From positions 310,001-374,000 of the forward strand of contig NZ_LWLB01000023.1 of NCBI RefSeq assembly GCF_001905145.1: DNA of 64,000 bases, given 5' to 3'. This DNA comes from Nocardiopsis sp. TSRI0078. Lineage in GTDB: Bacteria > Actinomycetota > Actinomycetes > Streptosporangiales > Streptosporangiaceae. The notes beneath the pieces were generated by a model. The model saw nothing but the letters and a program-made list of their open reading frames with translations. It had not been told where the DNA came from and did not search any database. The position numbers were made by a program, and so were the translations under genes. Positions 16,136 to 38,366 of the stretch are shown piece by piece; positions within the stretch are counted from its first letter, which is position 1; each line of letters begins with the position of its first letter.

Positions 16136-16204
16136 CGCGCCGAGCGCGCGGAGGACGACCAAGGCCAGGCTCCGCGTTCGAGCCCCGACATCCAAGGCAC
16201 CCCC

Positions 16205-18258: not shown

Positions 18259-19367
18259 ACGACTCCGACCAGGCGGCGGCCCGCGGCCCCGTCCCGACCG
18301 GCGTGCCGCCCTCCGGGGGGCCGGAGGGCGCAGCCGTGCCGGAGGTGCCCGCCGAACACGGCGGGGGAGGCAGTGGGAGGGCCTGGGACCGAAGGGCCTC
18401 CGTTGAGGGCGGTGGAGGAAGACGAAGTGGGAAGGGCTGGGACCGAAGGGCCTCCGTTGAGGGCGGTGGAGGGCGACGGGAAGCAGGAACCGCGCCGGAG
18501 GCGTCCGTCGAGGGCGGTGGAGGGCGACGGGCGGGAGGGCTGCGCGCCGACCGCGTCAGCCGACTCGTCGGCGGCCGGCTCGTCGTCGACGGCGTGACCG
18601 TGGCCCCGCGCCCCGGCGAGACCGTCGGCCTGCTCGGCCCCAACGGCTCCGGGAAGTCCACACTGCTGAGGCTGCTCGCCGGCGTCCTCGCGCCGTCCGC
18701 GGGCGTGGTCACCCTGGACGACCGACCGCTGGCCCGGACCGGGCGCCGCGCCGCGGCACGGCGCATCGCCGCCGTCCAGCAGAACGCGCACACCCAGACC
18801 GAGCTGACGGTCCGCGACGTCGTGGCTCTGGGGCGCGTCCCGCACCGCCGCCCCTGGTCGGTCATGTCCGCCTCCGACCTGCGCGCCGTGGCGGCGGCCC
18901 TGGAACGCACCGGCCTCACCGACCGGGCCGGGCAGTCCTGGCACACGCTGTCCGGCGGCGAGCGCCAGCGCGCCCAGATCGCCCGCGCCCTCACCCAGGA
19001 GCCGAGCGAGCTCCTGCTCGACGAGCCGACCAACCACCTCGACATCCAGTACCAGCTCGACCTGCTGGAGCTGGTCGCGGACCTGCCGGTCACCACCGTG
19101 ATCGCCCTGCACGACCTCAACCTGGCCGCGATGTACTGCGACCGCCTGCTCGTGCTCCGGGAGGGCCGTGCCGTCGCCGAGGGCACGCCCTCCCAGGTGC
19201 TGGTCCCGTCCCTCATCGAGGAGGTCTACGGGGTCCGGGCCGAGGTCACCCCCGGTCCGGGGCACCCGGTGATCCGCTTCCTGCGACGCGGCGCCGAGCC
19301 GCCGTCCCGGTTCGCCGGGCCGGCCCCGGACCGCCCCGCCGGAAGGGAGGCGGAAGCGGCGGGCTAA
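18255..19367 (+). CDS. btuD: Cobalamin ABC transporter ATPase with repeat-bearing N-terminal extension
   Basis: A 370-residue ATPase. Walker A GLLGPNGSGKST is near residue 127, followed by signature LSGGERQRAQIARAL, Walker B ELLLDEPTNHLD and the switch His in VIALHDLN. Usual BtuD/FecE proteins begin a few residues before the first beta strand; this one carries about 95 extra residues. Residues 40-57 and 58-75 are an 18-residue tandem repeat (SGRAWDRRASVEGGGGRR and SGKGWDRRASVEGGGGRR), and a third degenerate copy ends ASVEGGGGRRAGGL. The extension looks disordered and derives from the dispersed repeat described separately. The GTGA overlap with btuC fixes the start at 18255. Confidence 0.9.
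   Translation: MNDSDQAAARGPVPTGVPPSGGPEGAAVPEVPAEHGGGGSGRAWDRRASVEGGGGRRSGKGWDRRASVEGGGGRREAGTAPEASVEGGGGRRAGGLRADRVSRLVGGRLVVDGVTVAPRPGETVGLLGPNGSGKSTLLRLLAGVLAPSAGVVTLDDRPLARTGRRAAARRIAAVQQNAHTQTELTVRDVVALGRVPHRRPWSVMSASDLRAVAAALERTGLTDRAGQSWHTLSGGERQRAQIARALTQEPSELLLDEPTNHLDIQYQLDLLELVADLPVTTVIALHDLNLAAMYCDRLLVLREGRAVAEGTPSQVLVPSLIEEVYGVRAEVTPGPGHPVIRFLRRGAEPPSRFAGPAPDRPAGREAEAAG
18372..18545 (+). repeat. Three short copies of the cob-locus repeat, two as a 54-bp tandem
   Basis: Bases 18372-18425 and 18426-18479 are a 54-bp tandem repeat (two mismatches in the first 47 positions). A diverged third copy spans about 18481-18545, with the shared core CGTCCGTCGAGGGCGGTGG. The unit length is a multiple of three, so the btuD frame is kept. 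Compared with the copies at 23838, 25411 and 37478, these lack a middle section of about 37 bp. Confidence 0.8.
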
Positions 19368-19371
19368 GGTG

Positions 19372-19485
19372 TGGATTCTTCGCTCGTGGCGCAGGAACCC
19401 GGTGCGAGTCCGGGGCGGTTCCGCCACTGTGAGACCCCCGTCACGGGGGTCCAGCCAGACACTGGCCGCGAGCGGTCCGACCGCC
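19372..19485 (+). ncRNA. Cobalamin riboswitch upstream of cobN
   Basis: A compact cobalamin riboswitch: GGAACCCGGTGCGAGTCCGG (from 19394), then GCGGTTCCGCCACTGTGA, a GACCCCCGTCACGGGGGTC hairpin and AGCCAGACACTGGCC. It ends about 35 nt before the cobN start with the ribosome binding site GGGAGG in between, so control of translation initiation is likely. Boundaries are approximate. Confidence 0.93.
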
Positions 19486-19519
19486 GATGGGGCGAGAACC
19501 CCGAGGGAGGAATCCGGCC

Positions 19520-22500
19520 ATGACGGCACGGATCGCACTGCTGTCCACGTCCGACACCGACCTGCTCTCCGCGCGGGCCAGCGGCTCCGCGTACGCGTGG
19601 GCGAACCCGTCCCGCGCCTCCGACGCGGAGCTCACCGGCGCGGTCGGGGGCGCCGACCTCGTGGTGGTGCGGCTGCTCGGCTCCCCGCACGACCTGTGGC
19701 CCGGCCTCGCCGCCGTCCGGGAGCGGGGCACACCGCTGGTCGTCCTCGGCGGCGAGCAGCAGCCCAGCGCCGAGCTGATGGAGCACTCCACCGTCCCGGT
19801 CGGCGTGGCGACCGACGCCCACCGCTATCTCGCGGAGGGCGGACCCGCCAACCTCGGGCGCCTGCACGCCTTCCTGTCGGACACCGTGCTGCTGACCGGC
19901 GAGGGCTTCGACCCGCCGGCGCCCGTCCCGCCGTGGGGCCTCGCCGCCCGTGACGTGCCCCAGAGCACGACACTCCCGCGGGTGGGCATCCTCTACTACC
20001 GCGCCCACGAGGCCAGCGGCAACACCGCGTTCGCGCACGCCCTGGCCGACGCCGTCGACGCGACCGGGCAGGCCGTGGGCGTCCCCGTGTTCGCCGGGTC
20101 GCTGCGCTCCGCGCCCGACGAGCTGTTCGAGGCTCTCGGCGGCTTCGACGCGCTGGTGGTCACCGTCCTCGCGGCGGGCGGCAGCGTGCCCGCGTCCGCG
20201 AGCGCCGGCGGGGACGACGAGGCGTGGGACGTGGAACGGATGGCGGCCCTGGACGTCCCCGTCCTGCAGGGCCTGTGCCTGACCAGCTCCCGCGCCGAGT
20301 GGGAGGCCTCCGACGACGGCGTCACCCCGCTCGACTCGGCGAGCCAGATCGCCATCCCCGAGTTCGACGGCCGGATCATCACCGTGCCGTTCTCCTTCAA
20401 GGAGATCGACCACGACGGGCTGCCCCGCTACGTCGCCGACCCGGAGCGCTGCGCGCGCCTGGCCGGGATCGCGGTCGCCCACGCCCGGCTGCCGCACGTG
20501 CCCCCCGCCGAGAAGCGGCTCGCGGTCGTGCTGTCCGCCTACCCGACCAAGCACTCCCGCATCGGCAACGCCGTCGGGCTCGACACGCCCCGCTCACTGG
20601 TCCGCCTGCTGCGCCGGCTGCGCGCCGAGGGCTACGACCTGGGCGAGCCCGGCGACCTCCCCGGCCTGGACCTGCCCGACGACACCGAGGCCGGCGACGC
20701 GCTGATGCACGCCCTGATCGCGGCGGGCGGCCAGGACGAGGACTGGCTGACCTCCGTCCAGCTCACCGACGCCCAGGTGCGGATCACGCCCGAGGAGTAC
20801 GCCGCCTGGACCGAGGGCCTGCCCGCCTCCCTGAAGGAGGCGATGGCCGAGGCGTGGGGGCCCGCGCCCGGCCGCCTGTACGTGAACGACGCGGGCGAGC
20901 TCGTCCTCGCCGCGCTGCGCGCCGGCAACGTCGTCGTCCTGGTCCAGCCGCCCCGGGGCTTCGGTGAGAACCCGATCGCCATCTACCACGACCCCGACCT
21001 GCCCCCGAGCCACCACTACCTGGCCGCCTACCGCTGGCTGGAACACGGTTTCGGCGCCCACGCCGTCGTCCACCTCGGCAAGCACGGCTCGCTGGAGTGG
21101 CTGCCCGGCAAGAACGCCGCGCCGTCCGCCGCCTGCGGTCCCGACGCGGTGCTCGGCGACCTGCCCTTGGTCTACCCGTTCCTGGTCAACGACCCGGGCG
21201 AGGGCGCCCAGGCCAAGCGGCGCGCCCATGCCACGGTCGTCGACCACCTCATCCCGCCGATGGCCCGAGCGGAGACCTACGGCGACATCGCGCGCCTGGA
21301 GCAGCTGCTCGACGAGCACGCGAACATCGCGGCCATGGACCCGGCCAAGCTGCCCGCCGTCCGGGGCGAGATCTGGTCCCTGATGCGCGCGGCGGAGCTG
21401 CACCGCGACCTCGGCCTGGAGGAGCGGCCGGATGACGAGGAGTTCGACGACTTCCTGCTCCACGTCGACGGCTGGCTGTGCGAGATCAAGGACGCGCAGA
21501 TCCGCGACGGCCTGCACGTGCTCGGCGAGGCGCCGGCGGGCGAGGCCCGGGTGAACCTGGTCCTGGCCGTCCTGCGCGCCGCCCAGGTGTGGGGAGGGGT
21601 CGGTGCGGCGGTGCCCGGCCTGCGGTCCGCCCTCGGCCTGAAGGAGGACGCCCCGACCGGCGAGGTCGACGAGGCGGAGGCGAGCGCCCGCGGCCTCGTC
21701 GAGCGGATGGAGGCGGCGGGCTGGGACCCGGCCGCCGCGGCCGGCCTGCACGAGGACCCCGAGGTGTGCCGCGTCCTGGAGTTCGCCGCCACGCAGGTGG
21801 TGCCCCGTCTGTCCAGTACCACCGACGAGCTCGACCACGTCGTCCACGCCCTGGCGGGCGGCTTCGTCCCGGCGGGCCCGTCCGGCTCCCCGCTGCGCGG
21901 CCTGGTCAACGTGCTGCCGACCGGCCGCAACTTCTACACCGTCGACCCCCGCGCCGTCCCCTCCCGGCTCGCCTGGCAGACCGGGCAGGCCATGGCCGAC
22001 TCCCTGCTGCGCCGCCACCTGGAGGAGACCGGGACCTACCCGGAGTCGGTGGGCCTGTCGGTGTGGGGCACCTCCGCCATGCGCACGTCCGGCGACGACA
22101 TCGCCGAGGTGCTGGCGCTCCTGGGCGTGCGCCCGGAGTGGGACGAGGCCTCCCGCCGGGTCCGCCGGCTCGACGTGGTGCCGCTGGAGGAGCTGGGCCG
22201 CCCGCGCGTGGACGTCACGGTGCGCATCTCCGGCTTCTTCCGCGACGCGTTCCCCCACGTGGTCGCCATGCTGGACGACGCCGTGAACCTGGTCGCCGAC
22301 CTCGACGAGCCGGAGGAGCGCAACTTCGTCCGCGCCCACGCCCGCGCCGACCTGGAGGCGCACGGCGACCGGCGCCGCGCCACCACCCGGATCTTCGGCT
22401 CCGCGCCCGGCTCGTACGGCGCCGGCATCCTCCAGCTCGTGGAGTCCGGCAACTGGCGCGACGACAGCGACCTCGCCGAGGTCTACACGGCCTGGGGCGG

Positions 22501-23110
22501 TTTCGCCTACGGGCGCGGCCTCGACGGCGTCCCGGCCGCCGACGACATGCGCGCCAACTACCGCCGGATCAGGGTCGCGGCGAAGAACGTCGACAGCGCC
22601 GAGCACGACATCGCCGACTCCGACGACTACTTCCAGTACCACGGCGGCATGATCGCCACCGTCCGCGCCCTCACCGGCGCCGAGCCCAAGGCCTACGTCG
22701 GCGACTCCACCGCGCCCGACGCGGTACGCACGCGCACCCTCTCCGAGGAGACCGCCCGCGTGTTCCGGGCCCGGGTGGTCAACCCGCGCTGGATCTCGGC
22801 CATGCGGCGCCACGGCTACAAGGGCGCCTTCGAACTGGCCGCCACCGTCGACTACCTCTTCGGCTTCGACGCCACGGCCGGCGTCGTCCACGACTGGATG
22901 TACGAGAGACTCGCGGCCGAGTACGTGCTCGACTCCGAGACCCAGGAGTTCCTGCGCCGCTCCAACCCGTGGGCGCTGCACGGCATCGTCGAGCGGCTGC
23001 ACGAGGCCGCCCGGCGCGGGCTGTGGGCCGAGCCGGACCCGGCGACGCTGGAGGCCCTCCAGGAGACCTACCTGGAGGTCGAGGGCGACCTGGAGGACCG
23101 GTCCCAGTGA
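19520..23110 (+). CDS. cobN: Cobaltochelatase large subunit CobN
   Basis: A 1196-residue CobN/ChlH-family protein, full length for the family. It begins [19 protein letters not shown] (ATG 19520, GGGAGG nine bases upstream) and contains the family blocks [17 protein letters not shown] and [20 protein letters not shown] and a [15 protein letters not shown] region. It binds hydrogenobyrinic acid a,c-diamide and inserts cobalt with an AAA+/VWA partner, here probably the chelatase at 29524-31647. It is the first gene of a riboswitch-controlled operon and overlaps cobF by GTGA. Confidence 0.95.
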
Positions 23111-23832
23111 GAGTGCGGATCCTCGGCATCGGCATGGGGCCGCGGCACCTGACCCGGGAGGTCGCCGACGCGCTGCGGGGCTGCGACTACGCGGTGGCCG
23201 CCCGCAAACGCGAGGACGACGGGCTGCTCGCCCTGCGCCGGGCCGTCTGCGACGCGCACGGCGTCCCCCTGGTCGCCGTGCCCGACCCGGAGCGCGACCG
23301 CGACGATCCCGCGGACTACGCGGCCGCGGTCGCCGCCTGGCACGAGGCCCGGGTCCGCGCCTACGAGCGGGTGCTCGGCGAGCGCGGCGGCACCGCGGCG
23401 TTCCTGGTCTGGGGGGACCCGGCCCTGTACGACTCCACCCTGCGGATCGTGGAGCGGATCGCCGCGCGGGGGGTCGTTCCGGTGGAACACGACGTGCTCC
23501 CCGGTGTCAGCGCCCCGCAGCTGCTCGCCGCGCGGCACCGGATCGTGCTGCACGAGGTGGGCCGCCCGGTGCACGTCACGCCGGCGCGCAGGCTGCGCGA
23601 GGCCGTGGCCGCCGGGCAGGACAACATCGTCGTCATGCTCGGCGGGCAGCCGGAGTTCACGGGTCTGGAGCACTGGTCGGTCTGGTGGGGGGCCAACCTG
23701 GGCACCGACACGGAGGAGCTGGTCGCCGGACGGGTCGGTCAGGTGCTGCTCGAGATCGCCGCGCGCCGGAGGAGGGCCAGGGCCCAGGCGGGCTGGGTGA
23801 TGGACGTCGCACTGCTGAGGAGGCCGGCGTGA
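23107..23832 (+). CDS. cobF: Precorrin-6A synthase (deacetylating)
   Basis: A 241-residue SAM methyltransferase of the corrin type. [20 protein letters not shown] is the N-terminal glycine loop, [16 protein letters not shown] the GDP motif, and [16 protein letters not shown] the GVS block. CobF methylates C1 of precorrin-5 with loss of the acetyl group as acetate and is a marker of the aerobic pathway. The start at GTG 23107 overlaps the cobN stop, and its own stop overlaps the cobQ start. Confidence 0.92.
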
Positions 23833-26222
23833 GTAGGAAGGACCGCGGCCGGAGGCCGTCCGTTGAGGGTGGTGGCCCACGTGCCGCGCGTAGCGCCCCC
23901 ATGGGCGATGGCGGGCGACGGGTGGGAGGGCTGCTGGTCGCCGGAACCACCTCCGACGCCGGCAAGAGCGTCGTCACCACCGGTCTGTGCCGGGCCTTCG
24001 CACGCCGCGGCGTGCGGGTCGCGCCGTACAAGGCGCAGAACATGTCCAACAACTCCATGGTCTGCCACGGCCCCGACGGCCGCCCGGCGGAGATCGGGCG
24101 GGCCCAGTGGGTGCAGGCGCTGGCCGCCCGCGCCACGCCGGAGCCCGCCATGAACCCCGTGCTCCTCAAGCCGGGCGGCGACCGGCGCAGCCACGCCGTG
24201 CTGCTGGGGCACCCCGCCGGGGACGTGTCCTCGTCGGACTGGGAGGCGGGCCGCCGCCATCTGGCCGAGGCGGCGCACGCCGCCTTCGACGACCTGTCCG
24301 CCCGCTACGACGTGGTCGTCGCCGAGGGGGCGGGCAGCCCCGCCGAGACCAACCTGCGGGCGGGCGACTACGTGAACATGGGCCTGGCCAGGCACGCGGA
24401 CCTGCCCGTGGTGGTCGTCGGCGACATCGACCGGGGCGGCGTCTTCGCCGCGCTGTACGGCACGGTGGGCCTGCTCGAACCCGCCGACCAGGCGCTGATG
24501 GCGGGCTTCGTGGTCAACAAGTTCCGCGGGGACGCCGGACTGCTCCGGCCCGGGCTGGAGGACCTCGAACGCCTCACCGGCCGCCGGGTGTACGGCGTCC
24601 TGCCGTGGGACCCGGGACTGTGGCTGGACTCGGAGGACGCCCTGGACCTGGAGGGCCGCCGGGCGGACGAGGGCGGCGGGCCGCCGCCAGGAGGGGTCCG
24701 GCGGGTGGCCGTGGTGCGCCTGCCCCGGATCAGCAACTTCACCGACGTGGACGCCCTCGGCCTGGAGCCCGGCCTCGACGTCGTCTTCGCCTCCGGGCCG
24801 CGCGACCTCGCCGACGCCGACCTGGTCGTCCTCCCCGGCACCCGGTCCACCCTCGCCGACCTGGCCTGGCTGCGCTCCCGCGGGCTCGACCGGGCGATCG
24901 TCGAGCACGTCCGCCGCGGCAGGCCGCTGCTCGGCGTCTGCGGCGGGTTCCAGATGCTCGGCGGGAGCGTCACCGACCCGGACGGCGTCGAGGCCGGGCC
25001 CGGTGCGTGCGCGGACGGCCTCGGGCTGCTCGACGTACGGACCGAGTTCACCGCCGAGAAGACCCTTCGCCTGCCGTCCGGGAAGGCGCTCGGCGCGCCC
25101 GCGCACGGCTACGAGATCCACCACGGCCGGATCACGGCCGGCGGCGGCGCGGAGGAGTTCCTGGGCGGAGCGCGTTCGGGGAACGTCTTCGGCACCATGT
25201 GGCACGGCAGCCTGGAGGGCGACGCCTTCCGCACCGCCTTCCTCGCCGAGGCGCTCGGCCACGAGCCGTCCGGCGTGCGCTTCGCCGACGCCCGGGAGCG
25301 GCGCCTGGACCTGCTCGCCGACCTCGTGGAGCGGCACCTCGACGTCGACGCGCTGCTCGCCCTCGCCCGCGAGGGAGCCCCGGCGGGTCTGCCCGCGCTG
25401 GCTCCTGGAGGCTCGCCCGTCGCCCACCATCGCCCGGGTGGGCGCTCCGCGCCGGAAACGGGCCACCACCCCCGACCGAGGCCTCCGGCCCAGTCTCCTC
25501 CGGTGAGGCTGCTGCTTCTGGGCGGCACGTCCGAGGCCCGTGAACTGGCGGCCCTGCTGGTCGAGGCGGGCGTCGACGTGACCACGTCGCTGGCCGGGCG
25601 GGTGGCCCGGCCCCGCCTGCCCGTGGGCAGGGTGCGGATCGGCGGCTTCGGAGGGGTGCCCGGGCTGCGCGCGGCGCTCACCGCCTACGACGCGGTGGTG
25701 GACGCCACCCACCCCTTCGCGCTCGGCATGACCGCCAACGCGGCCGCCGCCTGCACCGACCTCCCCCTGCTGCGACTGGAACGGCCCGGCTGGGACCCCG
25801 ACCCGGCCTGGCACTACGCCGACACCCACGAGGCGGCGGCGGAGCTGGCGGCCGGGCTCGGCGGGCGGCCGTTCGTGACGGTCGGCCGCCAGGAGCTGGC
25901 CCGCCTCGTGCCCGCCCTGGGCGGGCGCGCGGTCCTGGCCCGGGTGGTGGACCCTCCCGAACTCGCACTGCCCGCGGACTGGCGTCTGGTGACCAGCCGG
26001 GGGCCGTACACCCTCGACGGTGAACTGGACCTGATGGACGGACACCGCGCGGACGTCCTGGTCACCAAGGACTCCGGCGGCACCTACACCTGGCCGAAGA
26101 TGGAGGCCGCGCGGCTGCTCGGTGTCCCGGTCGTGGTGGTGCGGCGTCCGCCGGGCCCGCCCGGCGTGCCCACCGTCCACGACGTGGCGGCCGCGTTCGA
26201 CTGGGTGAGCGCCCTGGGGTGA
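23829..26222 (+). CDS. cobQ-cobK: CobQ::CobK fusion: cobyric acid synthase plus precorrin-6A reductase
   Basis: One 797-residue reading frame. Residues 1-33 derive from a repeat copy (RRPSVEGGG, then GDGGRRV). CobQ spans about 34-535: the nucleotide motif [30 protein letters not shown], glutaminase Cys in [13 protein letters not shown] and His in MWHGSLEGD. It amidates adenosyl-cobyrinic acid a,c-diamide. Residues about 536-558 are a basic/Pro linker derived from an inverted repeat copy. CobK is 559-797, beginning [16 protein letters not shown], with [14 protein letters not shown] and the ending [10 protein letters not shown] and WPKMEAA; it reduces precorrin-6A. No stop codon lies between the domains. 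A separate CobK made from GTG 25503 cannot be excluded. The N-terminus overlaps cobF by GTGA. Confidence 0.9.
23838..23930 (+). repeat. Cob-locus repeat, full-length copy inside the cobQ N-terminus
   Basis: About 90 bp: GGCCGGAGGCCGTCCGTTGA at 23847-23866, then GGGTGGTGGCCC, a GCGCGTAGCGCCC segment, then GGGCGATGGCGGGCGACGGG. It aligns along nearly its whole length with the reverse complement of 25411-25490 and of about 37478-37565. It lies in frame between the cobF-overlapping GTG start and the conserved CobQ domain. Confidence 0.75.
25411..25490 (-). repeat. Cob-locus repeat, inverted copy joining cobQ to cobK
   Basis: Read on the minus strand: GGCCGGAGGCCTCGGTCGGG, then GGTGGTGGCCCG, CGCGGAGCGCCC and GGGCGATGGTGGGCGACGGG, matching the copy at 23838-23930. 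It occupies exactly the stretch between the last conserved CobQ residues and the first CobK residues and contains no stop in the plus frame. Confidence 0.75.
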
Positions 26223-26242
26223 GGTGCGAGCGGGTGTGGTGA

Positions 26243-26275
26243 GACCGTCCGCCGAGAGCTGTGGAGGGCGGGACC
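26243..26275 (+). repeat. Cob-locus repeat, short intergenic copy after cobK
   Basis: GACCGTCCGCCGAGAGCTGT followed by GGAGGGCGGGAC matches the short form of the repeat in btuD (CGTCCGTCGAGGGCGGTGG then AGGGCGACGGG) with several differences. It is the only copy seen outside a coding region. Confidence 0.5.
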
Positions 26276-26316
26276 GGGGTCGAGGGCCGTCCGGGCGCAC
26301 CCGCACCCGCGTCGAT

Positions 26317-26365
26317 CCTGCTCCTGGCGGCACTGTGGGACGCCGGCAGTGCCGCCAGGAGCAGG
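26317..26365. terminator. Bidirectional terminator between cobQK and cobBC
   Basis: A perfect 19-bp inverted repeat (26317-26335 with 26347-26365, 11-nt loop) lies between the convergent stop codons at 26222 and 26448. It is the longest perfect stem in the window. Confidence 0.85.
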
Positions 26366-26447
26366 AGCAACGGCGCAGGAAGGCTCCTGGTTCACACCCG
26401 CGACATCTCCGGTCGGCGCGCCGGCGGGGACGCCGTCGCCCGGGTGC

Positions 26448-29524: not shown

Positions 29525-31647
29525 CAGGCGGCCCTCTCTCGTACGGCACTGCCCAGTGCGTCGGCGCTGACCTCGCCGACGGGCAGGTGGTCGGCTCCCA
29601 GGTGGGCGGCCAGTCGTGCGGCGAGGCCGAGGCGCAGCGGGCCGGACTCGCCGTCCACCACGACGGTGGTGACGCCCAGCCCGGCGACGTGGTCGGCGGC
29701 GCCCATCGCACGGCCGACGGCGCCCCGTCCGCCGGTAGCCCGGCCGTCGGTGACGACGAGGAGGAGCGGGCGCAGCCGCGGGTCCCTCAGGCGCTCGCGC
29801 CGAAGGACGCGGGCCGCCTCCAGCAGTCCCTCGGCGAGCGGGGTGCGCCCTCCGGCGGGCAGGTCGTCGAGGCGGGCCGCGGCGGCGTCCACGGAGCGGG
29901 TCGGCGGCAGCGTGAGTTCGGCGCCCTGCCCCCGGAAGGTGATCAGGCCGACCTTGTCGCGGCGCCGGTAGGCGTCGAGGAGGAGGGAGAGGATCGCGGT
30001 CTTGACCTCGGTCATGCGCTTGCGCGCGGCCATGGAGCCGGACGCGTCGACGCAGAACAGGACCAGGTTGGTCTCCTGGCCCTCGCGGACCGCGACGCGC
30101 AGGTCGCGGGGGTGGAGGCGCATGCGGCCGCCGTCCCGCGGCCGGGACGCCGCGGCCCGGATGGTCTCGCCCAGGTGGAGCGAGTCGCCGCTTCCCCGGC
30201 CGGGCGGGGCGGAGCCGATCCGGCGGCCCCGCACGCCGACGGCCCGGCTGCGCCTGCCGTCGGCCCCCTCCCCGGATCCCCGCGCGGTGAACAGGCGGGT
30301 CCGGTAGGGGGCGGCGGCCGTGGCCGGAGCCGGGGAGTCGCCGGCCGGGCGGGGCGCCGGGGAGTCGTCGGAGCCGACCGGTTCCCGTTCGGCGGGCGCG
30401 GGGGACGGGCCCTGCTCGTCCGGACCGCCGTTCGGGGCCTCGCCGGGGCCGTCGGCGTTCGGGGCGCCGTCGGGGTCGGAGGGGTCGCCGGACTCTGACG
30501 GGTCGCCTGGACCGCCGGAGCCGGAGGGGTCCCCGGGCCCGGCGGGGTCGTCGGGGCCGCCGGAGTCGTCGGCCCCTCCCGGGCCCGGCGGCTCCGGGGG
30601 GTCGGGCGGCGGTTCCTCCTCGCCCAGGATCCGGTCGAGGAGTTCCTCGTCGAGCCCCGGCGCGTCGAAGGGGTTGCGCCGGCGCCGGTGCGGCAGGGCG
30701 AGCGTGGCGGCGCGGCGGATGTCGGCCCGGGTGACCGAGGTCCGGCCCTGCCAGGCCGCGTGCGCCACCGCCGTGCGCGCGGTGACGATGTCGGCCCGCA
30801 GGCCGTCCACGTCGTAGGCCGCGCACACCTCGGCGATCTTCAGCAGCGCGGCCTGCGACAGCCGCACCCGCCCGAGCGCCTCCCTGGCCGCGGCGATGCG
30901 CTCGGCGAGGGCCTCCTCGGCCTCGCGGTAGCGGGCGGCGAAGGCGGCGGCGTCGGAGTCGTGGGCCATGCGCCTGCGGACCACCTCGGCGCGGGCCGCG
31001 GGCTCGCGCGGCGCGGCGACCTCCACGGTGAGCCCGAACCGGTCGAGGAGCTGGGGCCGCAGCTCGCCCTCCTCGGGGTTCATCGTGCCGATGAGCAGGA
31101 ACCGGGCCGCGTGCTCCACGGAGAACCCGTCGCGTTCCACGGTCACCCGGCCGGTCGCGGCGGCGTCGAGGAGGAGGTCGACCAGGTGGTCGTGGAGCAG
31201 GTTGACCTCGTCGACGTAGAGGAGCCCGCGGTGGGCCCGGGCCAGCAGGCCGGGCTCGTAGGCGACCTTGCCGTGCGTGAGCGCCTGTTCCAGGTGCAGG
31301 GAGCCGAGGACGCGGTCCTCGGTGGCGCCGACGGGCAGTTCGACGAGCCGCACCGGACGGCTCTCCACGGCCGTGCCGGGCTCGAAGGGTCCGTCCGGCG
31401 ACCGCTGCGCCGGATCGGCGGGGTCCACGGAGAACCGGTCGCCCCGGTAGACGTCGACGGGCGGGAGCAGGGAGGCGAGGGCCCGGACGGCGGTGGACTT
31501 GGCCGTGCCCTTCTCGCCGCGCACCAGGACGCCGCCGATCTCCGGCGAGACGCTGGTGAGGACGAGGGAGAGGCCCAGGTCGTCGAGTTCCTCGGCGTCG
31601 CAGCCGACGATCGCGGAGAAGGGGTAGTGCGCCGTGCGCAATGGCAT
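29524..31647 (-). CDS. BchI/BchD-type AAA+ and VWA chelatase subunit, partner of CobN
   Basis: A 707-residue protein combining both small chelatase subunits. The AAA+ domain occupies residues about 1-335: Walker A RGEKGTAKST at 43-52, Walker B GLLYVDEVNLL, and GTMNPEEGELRPQLLDRFGL. A long acidic, Pro/Gly/Asp/Ser-rich linker follows (about 345-455, repeated GDPS-like units). The C-terminal VWA domain has MIDAS motif DASGSM near 533. Actinobacterial B12 loci lack CobS/CobT and use this Mg-chelatase-like protein with CobN for cobalt insertion. ATG 31647 has GGGAG six bases upstream, and a cobalamin riboswitch precedes it. Confidence 0.9.
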   Translation of the reverse strand: MPLRTAHYPFSAIVGCDAEELDDLGLSLVLTSVSPEIGGVLVRGEKGTAKSTAVRALASLLPPVDVYRGDRFSVDPADPAQRSPDGPFEPGTAVESRPVRLVELPVGATEDRVLGSLHLEQALTHGKVAYEPGLLARAHRGLLYVDEVNLLHDHLVDLLLDAAATGRVTVERDGFSVEHAARFLLIGTMNPEEGELRPQLLDRFGLTVEVAAPREPAARAEVVRRRMAHDSDAAAFAARYREAEEALAERIAAAREALGRVRLSQAALLKIAEVCAAYDVDGLRADIVTARTAVAHAAWQGRTSVTRADIRRAATLALPHRRRRNPFDAPGLDEELLDRILGEEEPPPDPPEPPGPGGADDSGGPDDPAGPGDPSGSGGPGDPSESGDPSDPDGAPNADGPGEAPNGGPDEQGPSPAPAEREPVGSDDSPAPRPAGDSPAPATAAAPYRTRLFTARGSGEGADGRRSRAVGVRGRRIGSAPPGRGSGDSLHLGETIRAAASRPRDGGRMRLHPRDLRVAVREGQETNLVLFCVDASGSMAARKRMTEVKTAILSLLLDAYRRRDKVGLITFRGQGAELTLPPTRSVDAAAARLDDLPAGGRTPLAEGLLEAARVLRRERLRDPRLRPLLLVVTDGRATGGRGAVGRAMGAADHVAGLGVTTVVVDGESGPLRLGLAARLAAHLGADHLPVGEVSADALGSAVRERAA

Positions 31648-31689
31648 GTGAGGCTCCCGCTCGTTTCGCCATCGGTAAGGGGCGGGCGC

Positions 31690-31855
31690 GAGGCCGGTCT
31701 TCGGACTTGCCGGGTCCTCCTTCACGGAGGCTCGGTTCACCGCAGCGGGCCTGTGCCGGAATCTCACCGGACTTCCCAGATTCTCCCCTCCCGCCGTCCC
31801 CACCGTTTCCGATGGCTGGGCCGTTGGGGCACCTCGTGCCTGTGGCCGCCACGAT
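31690..31855 (-). ncRNA. Cobalamin riboswitch upstream of the chelatase-cobO-cobBC operon
   Basis: On the minus strand: GGGAAGTCCGGTGAGATTCC, then CACAGGCCCGCTGCGGTGA (B12 box) and CAAGTCCGAAGACCGGCCTC at the 3' end. It lies in the 284-bp divergent gap between the chelatase gene and cobL, ending about 40 nt before the chelatase start. Boundaries are approximate. Confidence 0.93.
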
Positions 31856-31931
31856 AGCTTGGCCTCCTCCCCGCGGCGGAAGCCGGGGGCCCACCTCCAC
31901 CACGAACTCGGCCAAGGCCAGGAAGGTCGCT

Positions 31932-33161
31932 ATGCACTCCCCCAAGGAAACCGGGATCACCGTCGTCGGCATCGGGGCCGACGGCTGGCCCGGGGTGCCG
32001 GAGCGGCTGCGCCGGATCGTCCTGGACGCGGACGCGGTGCTGGGCGGCCGCAGGCACCTGGCGATGCTGCCTGACCTGCCCGGGCAGCGCCGTGAGGCCT
32101 GGCCCTCTCCCCTGCGGGAGGGCCTGCCGTCCCTGCTCGCCTCCCTCGGCGGCGCCTCCGCGGTCGCGCTCGCCTCCGGCGATCCCCTCGTGTCCGGTGT
32201 CGGCACCACGCTGATCGAACTGCTGGGCGCGGACTCCGTTCGGGTGGAGCCCGCCGTCTCCTCGGTCGCCCTGGCCCGCGCCCGGATGGGCTGGCCCGCG
32301 GAGCGGTGCGCGGTGGTGGGCCTGGTCGGGCGCGATCCCCGCCTGCTCCTGCGGGAGCTGGCACCCGGGCACCGTGTCCTGGTGCTCTCCTCGGACGGGG
32401 GCACGCCCGCGGCGGTCGCCGCCCTGCTGTCCGGCGCCGGCTACGGCGCCAGCCGCATGACCGTGCTGGGCGACCTGGGCGCGGACTCGGAGTCACGCAT
32501 GGAGAGCACGGCGGACGGCTGGCTGGCGTCCCCTCCCGGGAGGGCCCCCGCGCTGCACGTGCTGGCCCTGGAGCTCGTCGGCCCGCACCGGTACGGCCTG
32601 GTTCCGGGCCTGCCCGACGCCGCGTTCGAGCACGACGGGCAGCTGACCAAGAGGGACCTGCGCGCCTCGGCGCTGGCCCGGCTGGCGCCCTCCCCCGGGC
32701 AGCACCTGTGGGACGTGGGCGCGGGCGCGGGGTCGGTCGGCATCGAGTGGATGCGGGTCCACCCGGCCTGCACCGCCACCGCGGTGGAGGCACAGGCCGA
32801 ACGGGCCGCGCGGATCGGCCGCAACGCGGGCCGCCTCGGAGTCCCCGGGCTGCGCGTGGTCACCGGCCGCGCGCCGGACGCGCTGGCCGACCTGCCCGCA
32901 CCCGACGCGGTGTTCGTCGGCGGCGGCGCGACCCGGCCCGGCGTTCTCGACACCTGCCTGCGGGCGCTGCGGCCGGGCGGACGGCTCGTGGTGCACGGCG
33001 TGACGCTGGAGACCGAGCACCTGCTCGCGGACGCCTACCGGCGCCACGGAGGGGAGCTGACCCGTGTCGCCGTCGAGAGCACCGCACCCGTCGGCACGTT
33101 CACCGGCTGGACGCCCGCCCGTACGGTCACCCAGTGGTGCCTGGTCGTAGCGGCCCGGTGA
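31932..33161 (+). CDS. cobL: Precorrin-6Y C5,15-methyltransferase (decarboxylating)
   Basis: A 409-residue two-domain enzyme. The N-terminal CbiE-like methyltransferase domain has ITVVGIGADGWPGVPE, VALASGDPLVSGVG and VEPAVSSVALARARM. The C-terminal CbiT-like SAM domain (from about residue 240) has HLWDVGAGAGSVGIEWMR. The bifunctional protein methylates C5 and C15 and decarboxylates the acetate at C12. ATG 31932 has AGGAAGG upstream. It is divergent from the chelatase operon, and whether the riboswitch region also affects it is unknown. Confidence 0.92.
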   Translation: MHSPKETGITVVGIGADGWPGVPERLRRIVLDADAVLGGRRHLAMLPDLPGQRREAWPSPLREGLPSLLASLGGASAVALASGDPLVSGVGTTLIELLGADSVRVEPAVSSVALARARMGWPAERCAVVGLVGRDPRLLLRELAPGHRVLVLSSDGGTPAAVAALLSGAGYGASRMTVLGDLGADSESRMESTADGWLASPPGRAPALHVLALELVGPHRYGLVPGLPDAAFEHDGQLTKRDLRASALARLAPSPGQHLWDVGAGAGSVGIEWMRVHPACTATAVEAQAERAARIGRNAGRLGVPGLRVVTGRAPDALADLPAPDAVFVGGGATRPGVLDTCLRALRPGGRLVVHGVTLETEHLLADAYRRHGGELTRVAVESTAPVGTFTGWTPARTVTQWCLVVAAR

Positions 33162-33370
33162 CACTCGGCGCGAACCGCGCGACGTCCTGGGCGGTCTCTT
33201 CCCGAGAGTTCCACCATTGCCACGCTCTCAGCCCCTCCTCAGCGTTATTCTGGCGATGTGGGGCCCGGACCACCACACTCGGCGGCTTCCTCGACGAGCC
33301 GCTGAACGCCCAGGCCGGAGATCGTGTCCGTGTCGCCATCGCCCGCCACCGGTATCGCCCAGGGGGACAC

Positions 33371-33973
33371 ATGACCGTCGCAGAGCACCATCCGCCGCCC
33401 GAAGCACCGACGTTCCCCATGGGTCCCGAGCTGTTCGAGCGCCTTGCGGAACAGGCGTTCGAGGCCGACCGCGTACGTATGGAGATGTTCAACGGGAAGG
33501 TCTGGGTTCACAAGGTGACAGACGGAGCCCACGCAGGGATCCTCACCTGGATGATGCGCGAATTCATCGCCCACCGCCCCGACCTGGACCTCCTCACCAG
33601 CGGACTGGGTATCAAGATCGACACCTACCGCAACGGTCGCGCCCGCCCCGGCGGTGTCCTTGCTCCGATCGGTCACTTCGACCAGGCGGGAGAGTGGGCC
33701 GACCCGGGCGGCGTCCTGGCCGTCGTCGAGGTCACCTCCTGGGACGCCGACACCCATGCCCGTGACCGTGTCGAGAAGCCCGCCGCCTACGCGGCGACCG
33801 GTATCGGTGTCTACCTGCTGGTGGACCGGGACGCCAACGCCGTGGTGGTGCACAGCCGACCTGTCCGTGGCCAGTACCTGGACCGGAGCACCCACCCTTA
33901 TGGTGAGGCCGTTCCGGTGCCCGGCATCGGGGTCACCCTGGACACCACCGGGCTCAAGCGCTTCACCCGCTGA
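33371..33973 (+). CDS. Uma2-family putative endonuclease (DUF820)
   Basis: A 200-residue protein with the PD-(D/E)xK-like Uma2 fold. Candidate catalytic residues are the Asp of EWADPGGVLAVVEVTSWDAD (Asp, then Glu in VVEVTS) followed by the Lys of RDRVEKPAAYAATG. VYLLVDRDANAVVVHSRP is the typical C-terminal part. Uma2 genes are multicopy in actinomycetes with no established role. AGGGGGAC precedes ATG 33371. It interrupts the cobalamin locus between cobL and the cobG-M operon and has no evident link to it. Confidence 0.8.
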   Translation: MTVAEHHPPPEAPTFPMGPELFERLAEQAFEADRVRMEMFNGKVWVHKVTDGAHAGILTWMMREFIAHRPDLDLLTSGLGIKIDTYRNGRARPGGVLAPIGHFDQAGEWADPGGVLAVVEVTSWDADTHARDRVEKPAAYAATGIGVYLLVDRDANAVVVHSRPVRGQYLDRSTHPYGEAVPVPGIGVTLDTTGLKRFTR

Positions 33974-34006
33974 CGTGGCCGCCACCGATTCGTGGCCTTG
34001 TGGGGG

Positions 34007-34747
34007 TCAGCGGGACCGCGCCGGGTCGTAGAGATAGGACTCGCCGCCGCCCTCGGGGTCGAGCGCCCGTCCCACGAGGATCACCGCCGCCTGCCTGAAC
34101 CCGGCCTCCTCCACCGCGTCGGCGATGGAGGAGACCGTGCCGTGCAGCACCGCCTCGTCCGGCTGGCTGGCCCGGTGGACGACGACGACCGGGCAGTCGC
34201 CGCCGTACTCGGGCTCGATCTGCGCCATCAGCTCCCGCACCCGCCTGATCGCCAGGTGCAGCACCAGCGTGGCCCGGGTCGCCGCGAACGCCGCCAGCGA
34301 CTCCGTGTCCGGCATGGCGGTCGAGCGGGCCCGGGTGCGGGTCAGCACCACCGACTGGGCCACCAGGGGCACGGTCAGCTCCCGCCCCGCCAGCGCCGAG
34401 GCGGCCGCGTACGCGGGCACCCCGGGTGTGACGTCCCACGGGACGCCGTGCGCGTCGAGCCGCCGTGTCTGTTCGGCGAGCGCCGAGTAGAGCGACGGGT
34501 CGCCGGAGGTGAGCCGTACGACGTCCCCGCCCGCGGCGTGCGCGGCGACGAGACGGGCGGTGATGCGGTCCAGGTCCAGGCCCTGGGTGTCCACCAGTTC
34601 GGCGTCGGGAGCGCAGTGGGTGAGGACCTCCGGGTCCAGGTACGTGCCGGGGTAGAGCACCACGTCGGCCCCGGCGAGCATCCGCGTGGCGCGGACCGTC
34701 AGCAGATCGGCGGCGCCGGGCCCCGCCCCCACGAAGTGCACGGTCAC
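34007..34747 (-). CDS. cobM: Precorrin-4 C11-methyltransferase
   Basis: A 246-residue corrin methyltransferase. VHFVGAGPGAADLLTVRA is the N-terminal loop; then VVLYPGTYLDPEVL, VVRLTSGDPSLYSALAEQ and WDVTPGVPAYAAASALAGRE follow, matching CobM/CbiF. It methylates C11 of precorrin-4. GTG 34747 overlaps the cobIJ stop (GTGA). It is the last gene of the cobG-H-IJ-M operon. Confidence 0.93.
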   Translation of the reverse strand: MTVHFVGAGPGAADLLTVRATRMLAGADVVLYPGTYLDPEVLTHCAPDAELVDTQGLDLDRITARLVAAHAAGGDVVRLTSGDPSLYSALAEQTRRLDAHGVPWDVTPGVPAYAAASALAGRELTVPLVAQSVVLTRTRARSTAMPDTESLAAFAATRATLVLHLAIRRVRELMAQIEPEYGGDCPVVVVHRASQPDEAVLHGTVSSIADAVEEAGFRQAAVILVGRALDPEGGGESYLYDPARSR

Positions 34748-36288
34748 GGCTTCACCCACCTCGGGGTCCAGACGCGGCCCGCCCCGGAGACCCGGGTGCC
34801 GGACGCGCCGACGATCAGCAGGCAGCGCATGTCGACGGTGGCCGGGTCGAGTCCGCCCAGGGTGGTCACCGTCAGGGACTCGCCCTCCCGGCCGACGTCC
34901 CGGCCGAGGACGACCACGGTGTCGGGCTCGCGGTGCTCCAGCAGGATCCGGCGGGCGGTGACGATCTGCTCGGTCCGGGACCGGGAGGCCGGGTTGTAGA
35001 CGGCCAGCGCCAGGTCGGCCTCGGCCACGGCGCGCAGCCGCCGCTCGACCACCTCCCACGGTTTGAGGCGGTCCGAGAGGCTCATCACCGCGAAGTCGCC
35101 GCCGATGGGGGCGCCCGCACGGGCCGCGACCGCCTGGACGGCGCTGACGCCCGGCAGCACCCGGACGGGCACGTCCTGGTAGCCGGGGTCCTCGGCCGCC
35201 TCGAACACGGCGGTGGCCATGCCGAAGACACCGGCGTCCCCTCCGGAGACCACGGCGACGCGCTCGCCGTTCCTGGCCAGGTCGAGGGCGAGGCGGGCGC
35301 GCTGGAGCTCGACGGTGTTGCCGGAGGCGTGCCGGGTGAGCCCGGGGCGCTGCGGGACCCGGTTGACGTAGGGGGCGTAGCCCACCACGTGGTCCACCTC
35401 GGCGAGCGCCGCGCAGGCCTCGGGGGTGAGCCAGTGCCCGGGGCCGGGGCCAAGGCCCACGACCAGCAGTTCGGCCGCCGGTCGGACCGGAGCCGGGGAC
35501 TCCGGCTCCGGGGTCGTCGGTTCCGAAGGCGCCGGCTCCGCCGCGCCTGCGTTGCGGGACCGCCTGCCGTTGCGGCTGTCGCCGGTGACCAGCACCAGGG
35601 AGAAGTAGGGCACCGTCTCCGGGTCGACCTCCGCGACCGGCAGTCGCCGCTCCCCGTCCATCGAGGCGCGTTCCACGTACACCGCGTGCTCCAGCCGCCC
35701 GGCCGCCTCCAGGGCGCGGCGGACGGCCGGGAAGGTCCGGCCCAGTTTCATGACCACGGCCGCGTCGGTGTCCGCCAGGCGGCGGGCCAGCTCCGGTTCG
35801 GGCAGGGTGCCGGGCAGCACGGTGAGCACGTCGGTCTGCCGGGCCAGCGGGGCGGCCGCGGCGGCCGTGGCGGCGGAGAACGCCGGGATCCCGGGCACGA
35901 TCTCGGTCTCGTACCGCTCGGACAGCCGGTCGTGCATGTACATGTACGACCCGTAGAACAGGGGGTCCCCCTCGGAGAGCAGGACGACGTCGCGCCCGGC
36001 GTCGAGGTGGGCGGCCAGCCGTGCGGCTGACTCCTCGTAGAAGTCGGCCAGCGCCCCCGCGTAGCCGCCCGGATGGTCGGTCGCGCCGGTGGTCACCGGG
36101 TAGGTGAGCTGCTCCTCGATCACCGCTTCGGGGATCAGGTCCCCGGCGATGCGGCGGGCGTTGGACTCCTTGCCGACTCCGGCGTGGTAGGCGACGACGT
36201 CGGCTCCGGCGATGAGCCCGGCCGCCTTGAGGGTGATCAGCCCGGGGTCTCCGGGTCCGACGCCGACGCCGTGGAAACGACCGGTCAC
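34744..36288 (-). CDS. cobIJ: Bifunctional precorrin-2 C20- and precorrin-3B C17-methyltransferase (CobI::CobJ)
   Basis: A 514-residue fusion. CobI, residues about 1-238: FHGVGVGPGDPGLITLKA, VVLLSEGDPLFYGSYMYM and EIVPGIPAFSAATA. A Pro/Glu/Ser-rich linker (about 239-270) leads to CobJ: LLVVGLGPGPGHWLTPEA, VGYAPYVNRV, VAVVSGGDAGVFGMA and VLPGVSAVQAVAAR. The first half makes precorrin-3A; the second contracts the ring of precorrin-3B. The fusion is known in other actinobacteria (CobIJ of Mycobacterium tuberculosis). GTGA overlaps occur at both ends. Confidence 0.94.
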   Translation of the reverse strand: MTGRFHGVGVGPGDPGLITLKAAGLIAGADVVAYHAGVGKESNARRIAGDLIPEAVIEEQLTYPVTTGATDHPGGYAGALADFYEESAARLAAHLDAGRDVVLLSEGDPLFYGSYMYMHDRLSERYETEIVPGIPAFSAATAAAAAPLARQTDVLTVLPGTLPEPELARRLADTDAAVVMKLGRTFPAVRRALEAAGRLEHAVYVERASMDGERRLPVAEVDPETVPYFSLVLVTGDSRNGRRSRNAGAAEPAPSEPTTPEPESPAPVRPAAELLVVGLGPGPGHWLTPEACAALAEVDHVVGYAPYVNRVPQRPGLTRHASGNTVELQRARLALDLARNGERVAVVSGGDAGVFGMATAVFEAAEDPGYQDVPVRVLPGVSAVQAVAARAGAPIGGDFAVMSLSDRLKPWEVVERRLRAVAEADLALAVYNPASRSRTEQIVTARRILLEHREPDTVVVLGRDVGREGESLTVTTLGGLDPATVDMRCLLIVGASGTRVSGAGRVWTPRWVKP

Positions 36289-36950
36289 TCCTCCTCCTTG
36301 GCGAGTGCGTTGAGGGCCGACGAGGTCATCGCGGAGCCTCCGCGGCGGCCGCGAACGGTCACGTGGGGAATGTCGACGCCGTGTCGGTCGGCGAACTCCG
36401 TCAGCGCCTGCTTGGACTCGGCGGCGCCGATGAAGCCGACCGGGCAGCCGACGATCGCGGCCGGGCGCGGGGCGCCGTCGGCCAGCATCTCCAGCAGGTG
36501 GAAGAGTGCGGTGGGCGCGTTGCCGACGGCGACCACGGCACCGTCGAGCAGCGGCTCCCACAGGGACACCGCGGCCGCGGTGCGGGTGGTGCCCCACTCC
36601 CGGGCCAGGGCGGGGACCCGCTCGTCGCCGAGGAGGCAGAGCACCTCGTTGTCGCTCGGCAGGCGGTTCCTGGTCACACCGGCGGCCACCATGCGCGCGT
36701 CGCACAGGATCGGCGCACCGGCCCGGAGGGCGGCGCGCGCCGCGGGCACCAGACCGGGGTGGACGACCAGGTCGTCGGCGAGGTCGACCTGGCCGGTGCC
36801 GTGGATCATCCGCACGGCGAGCCGTTCGGCGTTGGCGGGCAGGTGGCCGAGCCGGGCCTCACGCCGGATGGTGCTGAAGGAGTCGGCGTAGATGGCGGGG
36901 CCGTCGTCGATGTACTCGTAGTGCCGGTTCGGCCGGCGCGGGATGGTCAC
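36285..36950 (-). CDS. cobH: Precorrin-8X methylmutase
   Basis: A 221-residue CobH/CbiC protein. Family blocks: ADSFSTIRREARLGHLPANA, RMIHGTGQVDLADDLVVHPG with the likely catalytic His50, APILCDARMVAAGVTRNRLP and GNAPTALFHLLEML. It moves the methyl group from C11 to C12, giving hydrogenobyrinic acid. GTG 36950 overlaps the cobG stop, and its stop overlaps cobIJ. Confidence 0.94.
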   Translation of the reverse strand: MTIPRRPNRHYEYIDDGPAIYADSFSTIRREARLGHLPANAERLAVRMIHGTGQVDLADDLVVHPGLVPAARAALRAGAPILCDARMVAAGVTRNRLPSDNEVLCLLGDERVPALAREWGTTRTAAAVSLWEPLLDGAVVAVGNAPTALFHLLEMLADGAPRPAAIVGCPVGFIGAAESKQALTEFADRHGVDIPHVTVRGRRGGSAMTSSALNALAKEEE

Positions 36951-37951
36951 TGTGCTTCTCCGGGAACGAGGACGCCGCGCCAGGGGGTGACGACGAGTTC
37001 GCCGTGTCCGGCGGCGAGCGCCTCCTCGGCGAGTGCTTCGGCGGCGGGCCGGTCCAGGCCCTCGGCGGGTACGGGAACGTGCCGTCCGCCTTCGGGCAGC
37101 GGGCCGTACGGCAACGGCGGGGCGGGGTCCGGCAGCCGTGGATCCGGTGGTGCCGGGTCGGTCAGCGGCGACGGGAGTTCGGCGACGTGCCACGGCGCGG
37201 TGGGTCCGTCGCCGCGCCGCTCCAGGAACGCGTCGGCGAACCGTACGAGACAGGCGGCGGCCTCGTCGAGCCGTGTCAGCGGCCCCCACTCCTCCCCGAT
37301 CCTCAGCTGGGCGACGTGTTCGTCGAGGGCGACGAGCCCCAGGTCGCAGGAGCGGTCGAGCAGGTCGCCGCGGCCGTCGTCCAGGACGAACAGGAAGCGC
37401 CCGGGGAGGGCGGCGCGGTGGGGCGCGGCGCACAGCAGCCCGTCCAGTGCGGCGGCGACGGGGCGCAGGTCGGCCCTTCCGCCCCTCGCCCGCCGCCGCT
37501 CCGGGGAGCGCTCCGCGTCGGACCGGGCCTCCACCCCCACCGGACGGCCTCCGGACGCGGCACCCCCCTCATGCCGAGAGCCCTCCTCCCCGGCGCCCCC
37601 GCCCGTCAGGCCCGTGCACGGGGAGACCATCACGTTGCGGACCAGTTCGTGGGCGGGCGAGGGCAGCAGCCCGGTCTCCTCGATGGCCCGGAGCACCTCA
37701 GGGGCCAGGCGACCGTCACGTCCGGGCAGGGCGCGCAGCTGCACGTTGGCCCGGCCGGTGACGTGGACCCGGCCGGAGCCGTGCTCGTCGGCCACCGCGG
37801 CCAGGGCGCGCAGCGAGCGGGCGGGAAGCCGGCCGCCGACGAGCCGGAGCCGGACCAGCATCCCGTCGTCGGCGGGCCAGGGGCGCAGGGCGCCGGGGCA
37901 GCGGTCGCGCCGGGTGCGCGGCGCGGGGGCTGGGGGTTGTGTCGGGGACAT
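36947..37951 (-). CDS. cobG: CobG-like precorrin-3B synthase lacking its C-terminal Fe-S/siroheme half
   Basis: A 334-residue protein. The N-terminus has the CobG-typical RCPGALRPWPADDGMLVRLR and a ferredoxin-like half-domain ending GRVHVTGRANVQLRAL. After HELVRNVMVSPCTG a repeat-derived insertion follows (about residues 125-160, Arg/Glu-rich), then VAAALDGLLCAAPHRAALPG and FLFVLDDGRGDLLD. The protein ends at the second half-domain (LVVTPWRGVLVPGEAQ). Full-length CobG continues past this point into a Cys-rich part binding the 4Fe-4S cluster (Cx5C and CxxxC pairs); I find none here. It is therefore probably truncated, and its catalytic competence is doubtful. ATG 37951 has GAAGGA five bases upstream, and the stop overlaps cobH. 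First gene after the riboswitch. Confidence 0.8.
   Translation of the reverse strand: MSPTQPPAPAPRTRRDRCPGALRPWPADDGMLVRLRLVGGRLPARSLRALAAVADEHGSGRVHVTGRANVQLRALPGRDGRLAPEVLRAIEETGLLPSPAHELVRNVMVSPCTGLTGGGAGEEGSRHEGGAASGGRPVGVEARSDAERSPERRRARGGRADLRPVAAALDGLLCAAPHRAALPGRFLFVLDDGRGDLLDRSCDLGLVALDEHVAQLRIGEEWGPLTRLDEAAACLVRFADAFLERRGDGPTAPWHVAELPSPLTDPAPPDPRLPDPAPPLPYGPLPEGGRHVPVPAEGLDRPAAEALAEEALAAGHGELVVTPWRGVLVPGEAQ
37478..37565 (-). repeat. Cob-locus repeat copy inside cobG
   Basis: Minus strand: GTCCGGAGGCCGTCCGGTGG, GGGTGGAGGCCCGG, GACGCGGAGCGCTCC and GCGGCGGGCGAGGGGCGG, alignable with the copies at 23838-23930 and 25411-25490. It encodes GGRPVGVEARSDAERSPERR in CobG, a stretch not expected in the family. 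Confidence 0.65.
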
Positions 37952-38009
37952 ACGAGTCCTTCGGGTCAGGGCCCGGTCGCGGGGCCCGCGGACGACCTGG
38001 CGGCCCGTC

Positions 38010-38190: not shown

Positions 38191-38366
38191 CTGGCTCGAC
38201 GAGGGTAGTACCCCGCTCCTTCCCGCCCTGACCCAGGGGTCCTCATCGCCCCGGACGAGGGCACGGCGGGGGCGGGCCGCGGCGCCCTGCCGGGCTCGCG
38301 CACGGCAGCTCCACGGCCCGCCCCCACGGCCGTGCACGGCCGTCGAACGCCTTCGCGAGGATCCGT

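Follow-up and report, generated by a model that had tools for sequence, protein, structure and literature searches.

Between about 15 and 38 kb of the window, by which we mean the whole 64,000-nt stretch of Nocardiopsis sp. TSRI0078 that was analyzed (contig NZ_LWLB01000023.1, positions 310,001 to 374,000), lie the btu and cob genes of a cobalamin locus, and our subject is a GC-rich palindromic repeat whose supported copies in this window sit in open cob/btu frames, as a first, sequence-only reading had said. From the list given by that reading, the three tandem short copies at 18372–18545, with cores at 18395, 18449, and 18500 (spacings of 54 and 51 nt), are retained, together with a long copy at the start of cobQ, another on the opposite strand at the cobQ/cobK junction, and a diverged one in cobG (table 1), whereas a short copy placed at 26243–26275 is not supported, having no covariance match at E 0.01 and being absent from the 53 own-genome BLAST matches (E ≤ 10). 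A 15-mer search of the window allowing three mismatches found 9 occurrences for 9.22 expected, which is not above chance, so that the window alone could not show the family; it is the covariance and genome-wide results that do. The cobalamin locus is copy-rich within its genome: 3 of the 15 matches listed at E ≤ 0.001 (16 counted) fall in a 19-kb stretch of it, and the sixteenth is probably the cobG copy, elsewhere given E 6.2e-4.

The unit is made, in this order, of a first hairpin, whose stem is free in sequence and whose loop is a mostly fixed C-GNA-G, of a conserved core (YCNGTTGAGGGYGGTGG-YGGGHGACGGGHGGGC), and of a G-rich 3′ end. Short copies (about 50 nt) hold this hairpin, with compensating stem changes around its loop, and the conserved G-rich core, and long copies (about 87 nt) carry a second hairpin inside the core, behind a GTAG-like head; the length difference noticed from the letters alone is thereby borne out as one whole hairpin. 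Across 116 matches (109 distinct), 96.8% of the cells of the stem pairs are paired against 85.0% in shuffles, and changes on both sides of a pair are found in 102 cells against 21.5 in shuffles, spread over 11 of the 13 pairs, while sliding the partners by 1–3 columns gives 2–7 such cells; these figures come from an alignment fitted to the model's own structure, which leans toward that structure, and from related copies that are not independent. The triloop of hairpin 1 reads C-GNA-G in 88 of the 109 distinct copies (a raw-sequence count that includes two copies without a core match and three without a stem), the loop of hairpin 2 being more mixed (C-GNA-G in 36 of 76). G-T wobbles (18) and A-C mismatches (14) are similar in number, so that the folding strand is not decided by them. 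Both ends of a copy are defined, one by a purine-rich leader (about 8 nt) and the other by GGGYGGGC, and outside them the composition returns to background.

The repeat had been taken to be confined to the cobalamin locus, which proved wrong: BLAST of the copy at 23838 turns up relatives on many other contigs of this genome and, in a first sample, in 27 of 41 genomes, namely its own, all 24 other Nocardiopsis, and 2 of 16 from outside the genus, with one weak match each. When a profile was built from the copies, as the sequence-only reading had proposed, the resulting covariance model (R1, from 12 long copies) revealed a dispersed family in all 40 Nocardiopsis genomes searched, the own genome (G000) and 39 others (E ≤ 0.01), with 21 matches in G000, 2–3 in the copy-poorest genomes (G017, G047, G052, G053, and G055), and at least 101–106 in the copy-richest ones (G041, G010, G048, G050, and G054), where counts near 106 are lower bounds, at most 106 candidates having been scored per genome. 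Beyond the genus, R1 matches 20 of 200 genomes in a family-wide sample (E ≤ 0.001), 11 of them Nocardiopsis and nine from five other genera; 17 stretches from these nine genomes hold 21 matches, with clear short copies in four genera, their stems different yet paired, and three stretches that align poorly (L227–L229), which include the two from the fifth genus. A class-wide sample yields matches in 18 of 296 genomes. Eight of these belong to other families and have a single weak match apiece: five, all from one genus (g87), prove to be short copies whose hairpin is paired, and three are unconvincing. The exact core pattern occurs in 5 of 396 phylum-wide genomes (the own genome and four of g87; reversed control, 0), and the core with at most one mismatch in 181 of 295 g87 genomes (reversed control, 0 in all listed rows). 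At g87 cores, the best stem reaches at least 5 bp in 19 of 34 cases, against 7.5% in shuffled flanks, and the stem sequence varies widely when the core is kept, with a GNA loop in 20 of 34. With genomes of 4.8–12.4 Mb, at least 295 species, and one tested protein whose best match in a plasmid collection lies in Streptomyces fungicidicus (84.6% over 100%), we infer that g87 is Streptomyces; a core scan with up to two mismatches found none in 76 named non-Nocardiopsis loci and one Streptomyces fungicidicus stretch, hence no copy in a named Streptomyces. The exact core has no occurrence in viral contigs, and two blastn searches of plasmids, run with the BLAST low-complexity filter on, gave no match.

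Presence and absence of copies can be followed at orthologous sites, of which we compared 30 loci each: the cobQ start (A), the cobQ/cobK junction (B), the cobN linker (C), and cobG (D). As these were chosen for having copies in the window's genome or in G041, no hotspot is claimed. At site C, the linker measures 30 nt in 24 of 30 genomes, 33 nt in G043 (+3), and 63 nt in G005 (+33), and the genomes with a scored copy are longer by 54 (G012), 84 (G019), 90 (G041), and 174 nt (G002), all multiples of three; G041, with a copy, and G050, with none, differ there by 90 nt between flanks that are about 96% identical. At site A, scored copies are found in 7 of 30 genomes, and all 30 lengths are 1 mod 3. 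At site D, 13 genomes share the commonest length of 15 nt; where a copy or remnant is present, the site is longer by 69 (G019), 75 (G002, decayed and unscored), 96 (G048), and 120 nt (own genome). Site B measures 59 nt in 12 of 30 genomes, the cobQ stop TGA overlapping the cobK start, and has copies in nine: two short ones (+45 and +51) keep this overlap, and seven long ones (+76, +82, +85 four times, and +157), all 1 mod 3, go in 7 of 7 cases with a single CobQ–CobK frame, in which the cobK start codon is still present. Such a frame is also found in G011 without a scored copy; at site B, 29 of the 30 lengths are 0 or 1 mod 3, the exception being G016 (2 mod 3), which has an earlier cobQ stop. 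The lengths of copies within genes thus fit the reading frame. In G014 (L292) and G049 (L299), the cobQ/cobK linker is long and different, over 370 nt beyond most relatives, and the cobQ frame continues for 491 aa and to the locus end, respectively, with the CobK motif unmatched and no scored repeat.

A 27-genome tree built on cobN and cobQ segments requires at least 6, 5, 3, and 3 presence changes at sites A to D, presence being restricted to R1/R2 matches, so that the remnants noticed on inspection in G002 (at A and D) and G005 (at C) count as absent, as does G014 at D, its locus lying outside the data compared. Copies at site B are common by descent to the own genome, G002, G019, and G012, and others differ between near relatives. 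These minimum changes show that relatives do not share all copies, one of two outcomes that the sequence-only reading had named as refuting its proposal, though some copies are indeed shared by descent.

With regard to genes, that reading had placed the copies mostly inside coding frames, which holds for the cobalamin locus but not for the family. Among 78 arrays, mainly the best-scoring copies of G000, G010, and G041 and hence not a random sample, 13 lie inside a gene (the same open frame on both sides), 8 at a junction of two frames, 35 beside one, 21 beside none, and 1 is in phase but contains a stop. In 40 loci of G010 and G041, 817 of 1,362 random positions are inside genes, against 3 of the 41 arrays from these loci, a control in which zero-length gaps make "inside" easier to score than for arrays of 58–370 nt. 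Copies are therefore mostly outside genes and depleted within them. These calls rest on a home-made codon score trained on 30 open reading frames (ORFs), which misses four rows that homology places in coding frames (those at 18360 and 23838 of the window, L039, and L139). Two rows are duplicates (L153 is the same place in G004 as L038, and L140 is part of the L059 cobN pair), leaving 76 distinct arrays, 12 of them inside, and further rows are orthologous (L033 and L035; L034, L139, and the window copy; L172 and L193); the duplicate and mis-scored rows leave the context picture unchanged.

Taken together, the covarying structure, the dispersal, the orthologous presence and absence, the head-to-tail arrays, and the frame-fitting lengths within genes are observed features, and they make it likely, in our view, that the copies form a non-autonomous family of dispersed palindromic repeats, working like repetitive extragenic palindromic (REP) sequences, mycobacterial interspersed repetitive units (MIRU), and Rickettsia palindromic elements (RPEs). 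A trans-acting enzyme would make new copies by recognizing the hairpin and core together on one of the DNA strands; insertions into genes would mostly be lost, and the survivors would be those that stay open, in variable linkers, gene ends, or stop/start overlaps, where they would be translated as a linker peptide. At cobQ/cobK, a long copy would have joined two overlapping genes in a single reading frame, from which one protein may be made. Since the layout of free stem, fixed loop, and fixed core amounts to a clear recognition signature, the enzyme or protein behind the repeat should be findable. More tentatively, the copies of Nocardiopsis, its relatives, and Streptomyces could possibly belong to one so far undescribed superfamily of actinobacterial mobile repeats, defined by a free-sequence GNA-loop hairpin and a G-quadruplex-like core, moved via single-stranded DNA by an enzyme other than the known Y1 transposases, and acting as a source of protein linkers and gene fusions; a light search of the open-licence literature found no paper on this Nocardiopsis repeat. 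In a GC-rich group with many antibiotic producers, the family is a dispersed palindromic repeat that can be scored as present or absent to the single base, and the natural series within one operon (overlap, overlap kept where the copy is short, single frame where it is long) may tell how gene borders are changed by repeats and what constraints translational coupling places on them.

As regards known systems, RPEs are described in excerpts of PMC10969869 as short palindromic repeats of about 150 bp, in ten families, that lie in frame inside unrelated genes and are read as extra peptide. The palindromic in-gene element first proposed here after this model stands as far as orthologous presence and absence, cobN and cobG inserts in multiples of three, covarying hairpins, and in-frame insertion inside unrelated genes are concerned, but the likeness, drawn by description only, fails for the bulk of a family whose copies measure about 50 or 87 nt, lie for the most part outside genes, and often form head-to-tail tandem arrays. 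MIRU lie at operon gene junctions with overlapping stop and start codons, and have unit sizes near 53 and 77. They are also, according to the part of PMC2734929 consulted, actinobacterial elements of 40–100 bp, scattered and in tandem with differing copy number, a size, dispersal, tandem habit, and host group that the Nocardiopsis repeat shares by description. Run on 76 non-Nocardiopsis loci, some of them mycobacterial and none of which need hold MIRU, R1 gave nothing below E 0.088.

Several observations weigh against our preferred reading. The target-site duplications that the sequence-only reading had suggested looking for were not found in the 60 copies treated as isolated; shared 5–8-mers are in excess at the ends, but on inspection they look like tandem neighbors. 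Together with ends that are not terminal inverted repeats (purine leader vs. GGGYGGGC), the lack of such duplications sets the repeat apart from miniature inverted-repeat transposable elements (MITEs), of which old ones can lose their duplications, as stated in the excerpts of PMC10969869. Folds of single copies as DNA (five copies, both strands) were clearly more stable than shuffles in 1 of 10 cases (z −2.79). Orientation is uniform at each of the four cob sites in the copy-bearing genomes (7, 9, 4, and 3), a pattern equally compatible with repeated insertion and with old single insertions that later underwent repeated loss and changes between the short and long forms. In the 15 rows that lie in genes (L140 repeating part of L059), the repeat is read in sense frame 2 eight times, sense frame 0 twice, antisense frame 2 three times, and antisense frame 1 twice, one sense frame being closed by a TGA in the core; this uneven use could hint at selection for a peptide. 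At site D, four genomes without a scored copy (G006, G007, G015, and G045) depart by non-multiples of three, probably through shifted anchors. Finally, a mover is hard to name: in the 40 Nocardiopsis genomes, the Y1 transposase domain (PF01797, Y1_Tnp; E ≤ 0.001) is found in 13 and is absent from G000 and from four of the five copy-richest (G041, G010, G050, and G054), and reverse transcriptase (RT), found in 12, is absent from G000 and from three of these five (G048, G050, and G054). An RT-based mover was rejected, as RT presence shows no visible relation to copy number, and so, within the reach of PF01797, was a REP-associated tyrosine transposase (RAYT); the spread may go back to past activity or to a divergent enzyme that scores below threshold. 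G007 and G015 have 22 and 10 RT matches, many with identical scores, as expected of multi-copy group II introns.

The alternative that copies are functional sites, bound by a protein or forming a G-quadruplex, with a role in nucleoid organization or expression, and kept by selection rather than spreading selfishly, we hold to be unlikely, though several regularities speak for it. Conservation of the G-rich core extends from Nocardiopsis to g87; 18 of 21 short copies, and 74 of 109 copies overall, have a four-tract G-quadruplex pattern on the strand of the core, against mononucleotide-shuffled means of 4.4 and 15.6, and none has it on the opposite strand; and, among 78 distinct tandem spacings, 36 fall at 48–55 nt and 40 at 74–89 nt, with two at 121–124 nt. 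Constant-size 52-nt tandem repeats of Bacillus and other Firmicutes, forming arrays of species-specific sequence with fixed short motifs, have likewise been proposed to serve in protein–DNA complexes (PMC8161180); the Nocardiopsis repeat is like them in its unit size near 52 and its fixed short motifs, and unlike them in a core shared across genera and in the frequency of single copies. However, selected sites hardly account for matches that vary from 2 to over 100 within one genus, for near relatives that differ at orthologous sites, or for arrays that occur in both orientations and, when beside one gene, face its 3′ end about as often (19) as its 5′ end (16). The latter lack of preference for gene 3′ ends also led us to reject a terminator role.

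That the copies are true REP elements moved by a RAYT, a Y1 transposase, is quite improbable. REP sequences combine a GT(A/G)G head with an imperfect palindrome, high copy number, and compensatory stem changes (as given in extracts of PMC2817692), and the long form shares these traits, 62 of 76 long copies having GTAG or GTGG immediately ahead of hairpin 2. However, short copies carry the head with no palindrome after it, an extra hairpin-plus-core stands in front, and no RAYT partner was found: besides the copy-rich genomes without Y1_Tnp, none of the ten Y1 loci inspected, out of 27 matches listed, has a copy nearby (about 1.5 kb around; best E 0.13), so that neither a cognate Y1 gene flanked by inverted copies nor an abundance following Y1 is observed. 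Arrays run head to tail, and none of the alternating orientation of the mosaics that REP sequences form (bacterial interspersed mosaic elements, BIMEs) was seen, no systematic search for alternating pairs having been made. The repeat thus lacks a tested defining feature of REP sequences, as it does one of MITEs, and we file it as a variant among dispersed palindromic repeats. Replication slippage and recombination alone, making minisatellites without transposition, would explain the many head-to-tail arrays (ten 54-nt units in G024, for example) and the length changes between species at one site, but slippage does not put single copies at many unrelated sites, nor does it produce a single copy facing an empty site as in the cobN linkers of G041 and G050, which makes this explanation very doubtful. 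Ordinary codon-biased Gly/Arg coding sequence without a boundary, a possibility that in-frame reading in a GC-rich host had invited, is already refuted by the majority of copies outside genes, the covarying stems, the defined ends, and the use of both strands and several frames.

Table 1. Repeat copies, their parts, and the genes and site concerned in the window (positions in the 64,000-nt stretch).
Feature	Position	Strand	Remarks
Short copy 1 of tandem array	18378..18425 (ends approximate)	+	Core at 18395; in N-terminal extension of BtuD/FecE-type ABC ATPase
Short copy 2 of tandem array	18432..18479 (ends approximate)	+	54 nt after copy 1
Short copy 3 of tandem array	18481..18538	+	Full 3′ end (GACGGGCGGG); 42.6 bits covariance; core without mismatch
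ABC transporter ATPase carrying the array	18255..19367	+	GTG start homologous to the start in array-less relatives
Empty site in cobN variable linker (about 30 nt)	19946..19974	+	Filled in four relatives
Continuous CobQ–repeat–CobK reading frame	23829..26222	+	Open frame
Long copy at codon 3–4 of cobQ, beside overlapping cobF stop	23834..23929	+	83.3 bits covariance
Hairpin 1 of the 23834 copy, GCGGCC-GGA-GGCCGT (C-GNA-G loop)	23845..23859	+	Sequence and covariation
Conserved core CCGTTGAGGGTGGTGG, GTGG head at its end	23860..23875	+	Sequence
Hairpin 2 of the 23834 copy (not in short copies), CCCA...GCGC-GTA-GCGC...TGGG	23876..23905	+	Sequence and covariation
Long copy at cobQ/cobK junction, antisense to the genes	25409..25502	-	91.8 bits covariance
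cobG-like gene with insert (precorrin-3B synthase, below curated cut-off)	36947..38113	-	Profile match
Diverged long copy, in frame within cobG after MVSPxTG stretch	37475..37569	-	30.5 bits covariance

Elsewhere in the family, short copies were observed at comparable positions within tnpB-like frames of two species, at about 1494–1553 of L042 (G008) and about 158–217 of L053 (G006), frames that we take by eye to be tnpB from its motifs. These two copies looked like insertion sequence (IS) ends of the IS605/TnpB kind, a candidate that was set aside, the copies being read as insertions into the gene. The locus itself also holds four cobalamin riboswitches, at 15928–16144 and 19370–19484 on the plus strand and at 31675–31806 and 38005–38210 on the minus strand, as well as a cluster of imperfect tandem repeats at 30224–30576, with units of 18–45 nt, such as the two 45-nt units at 30477–30565.

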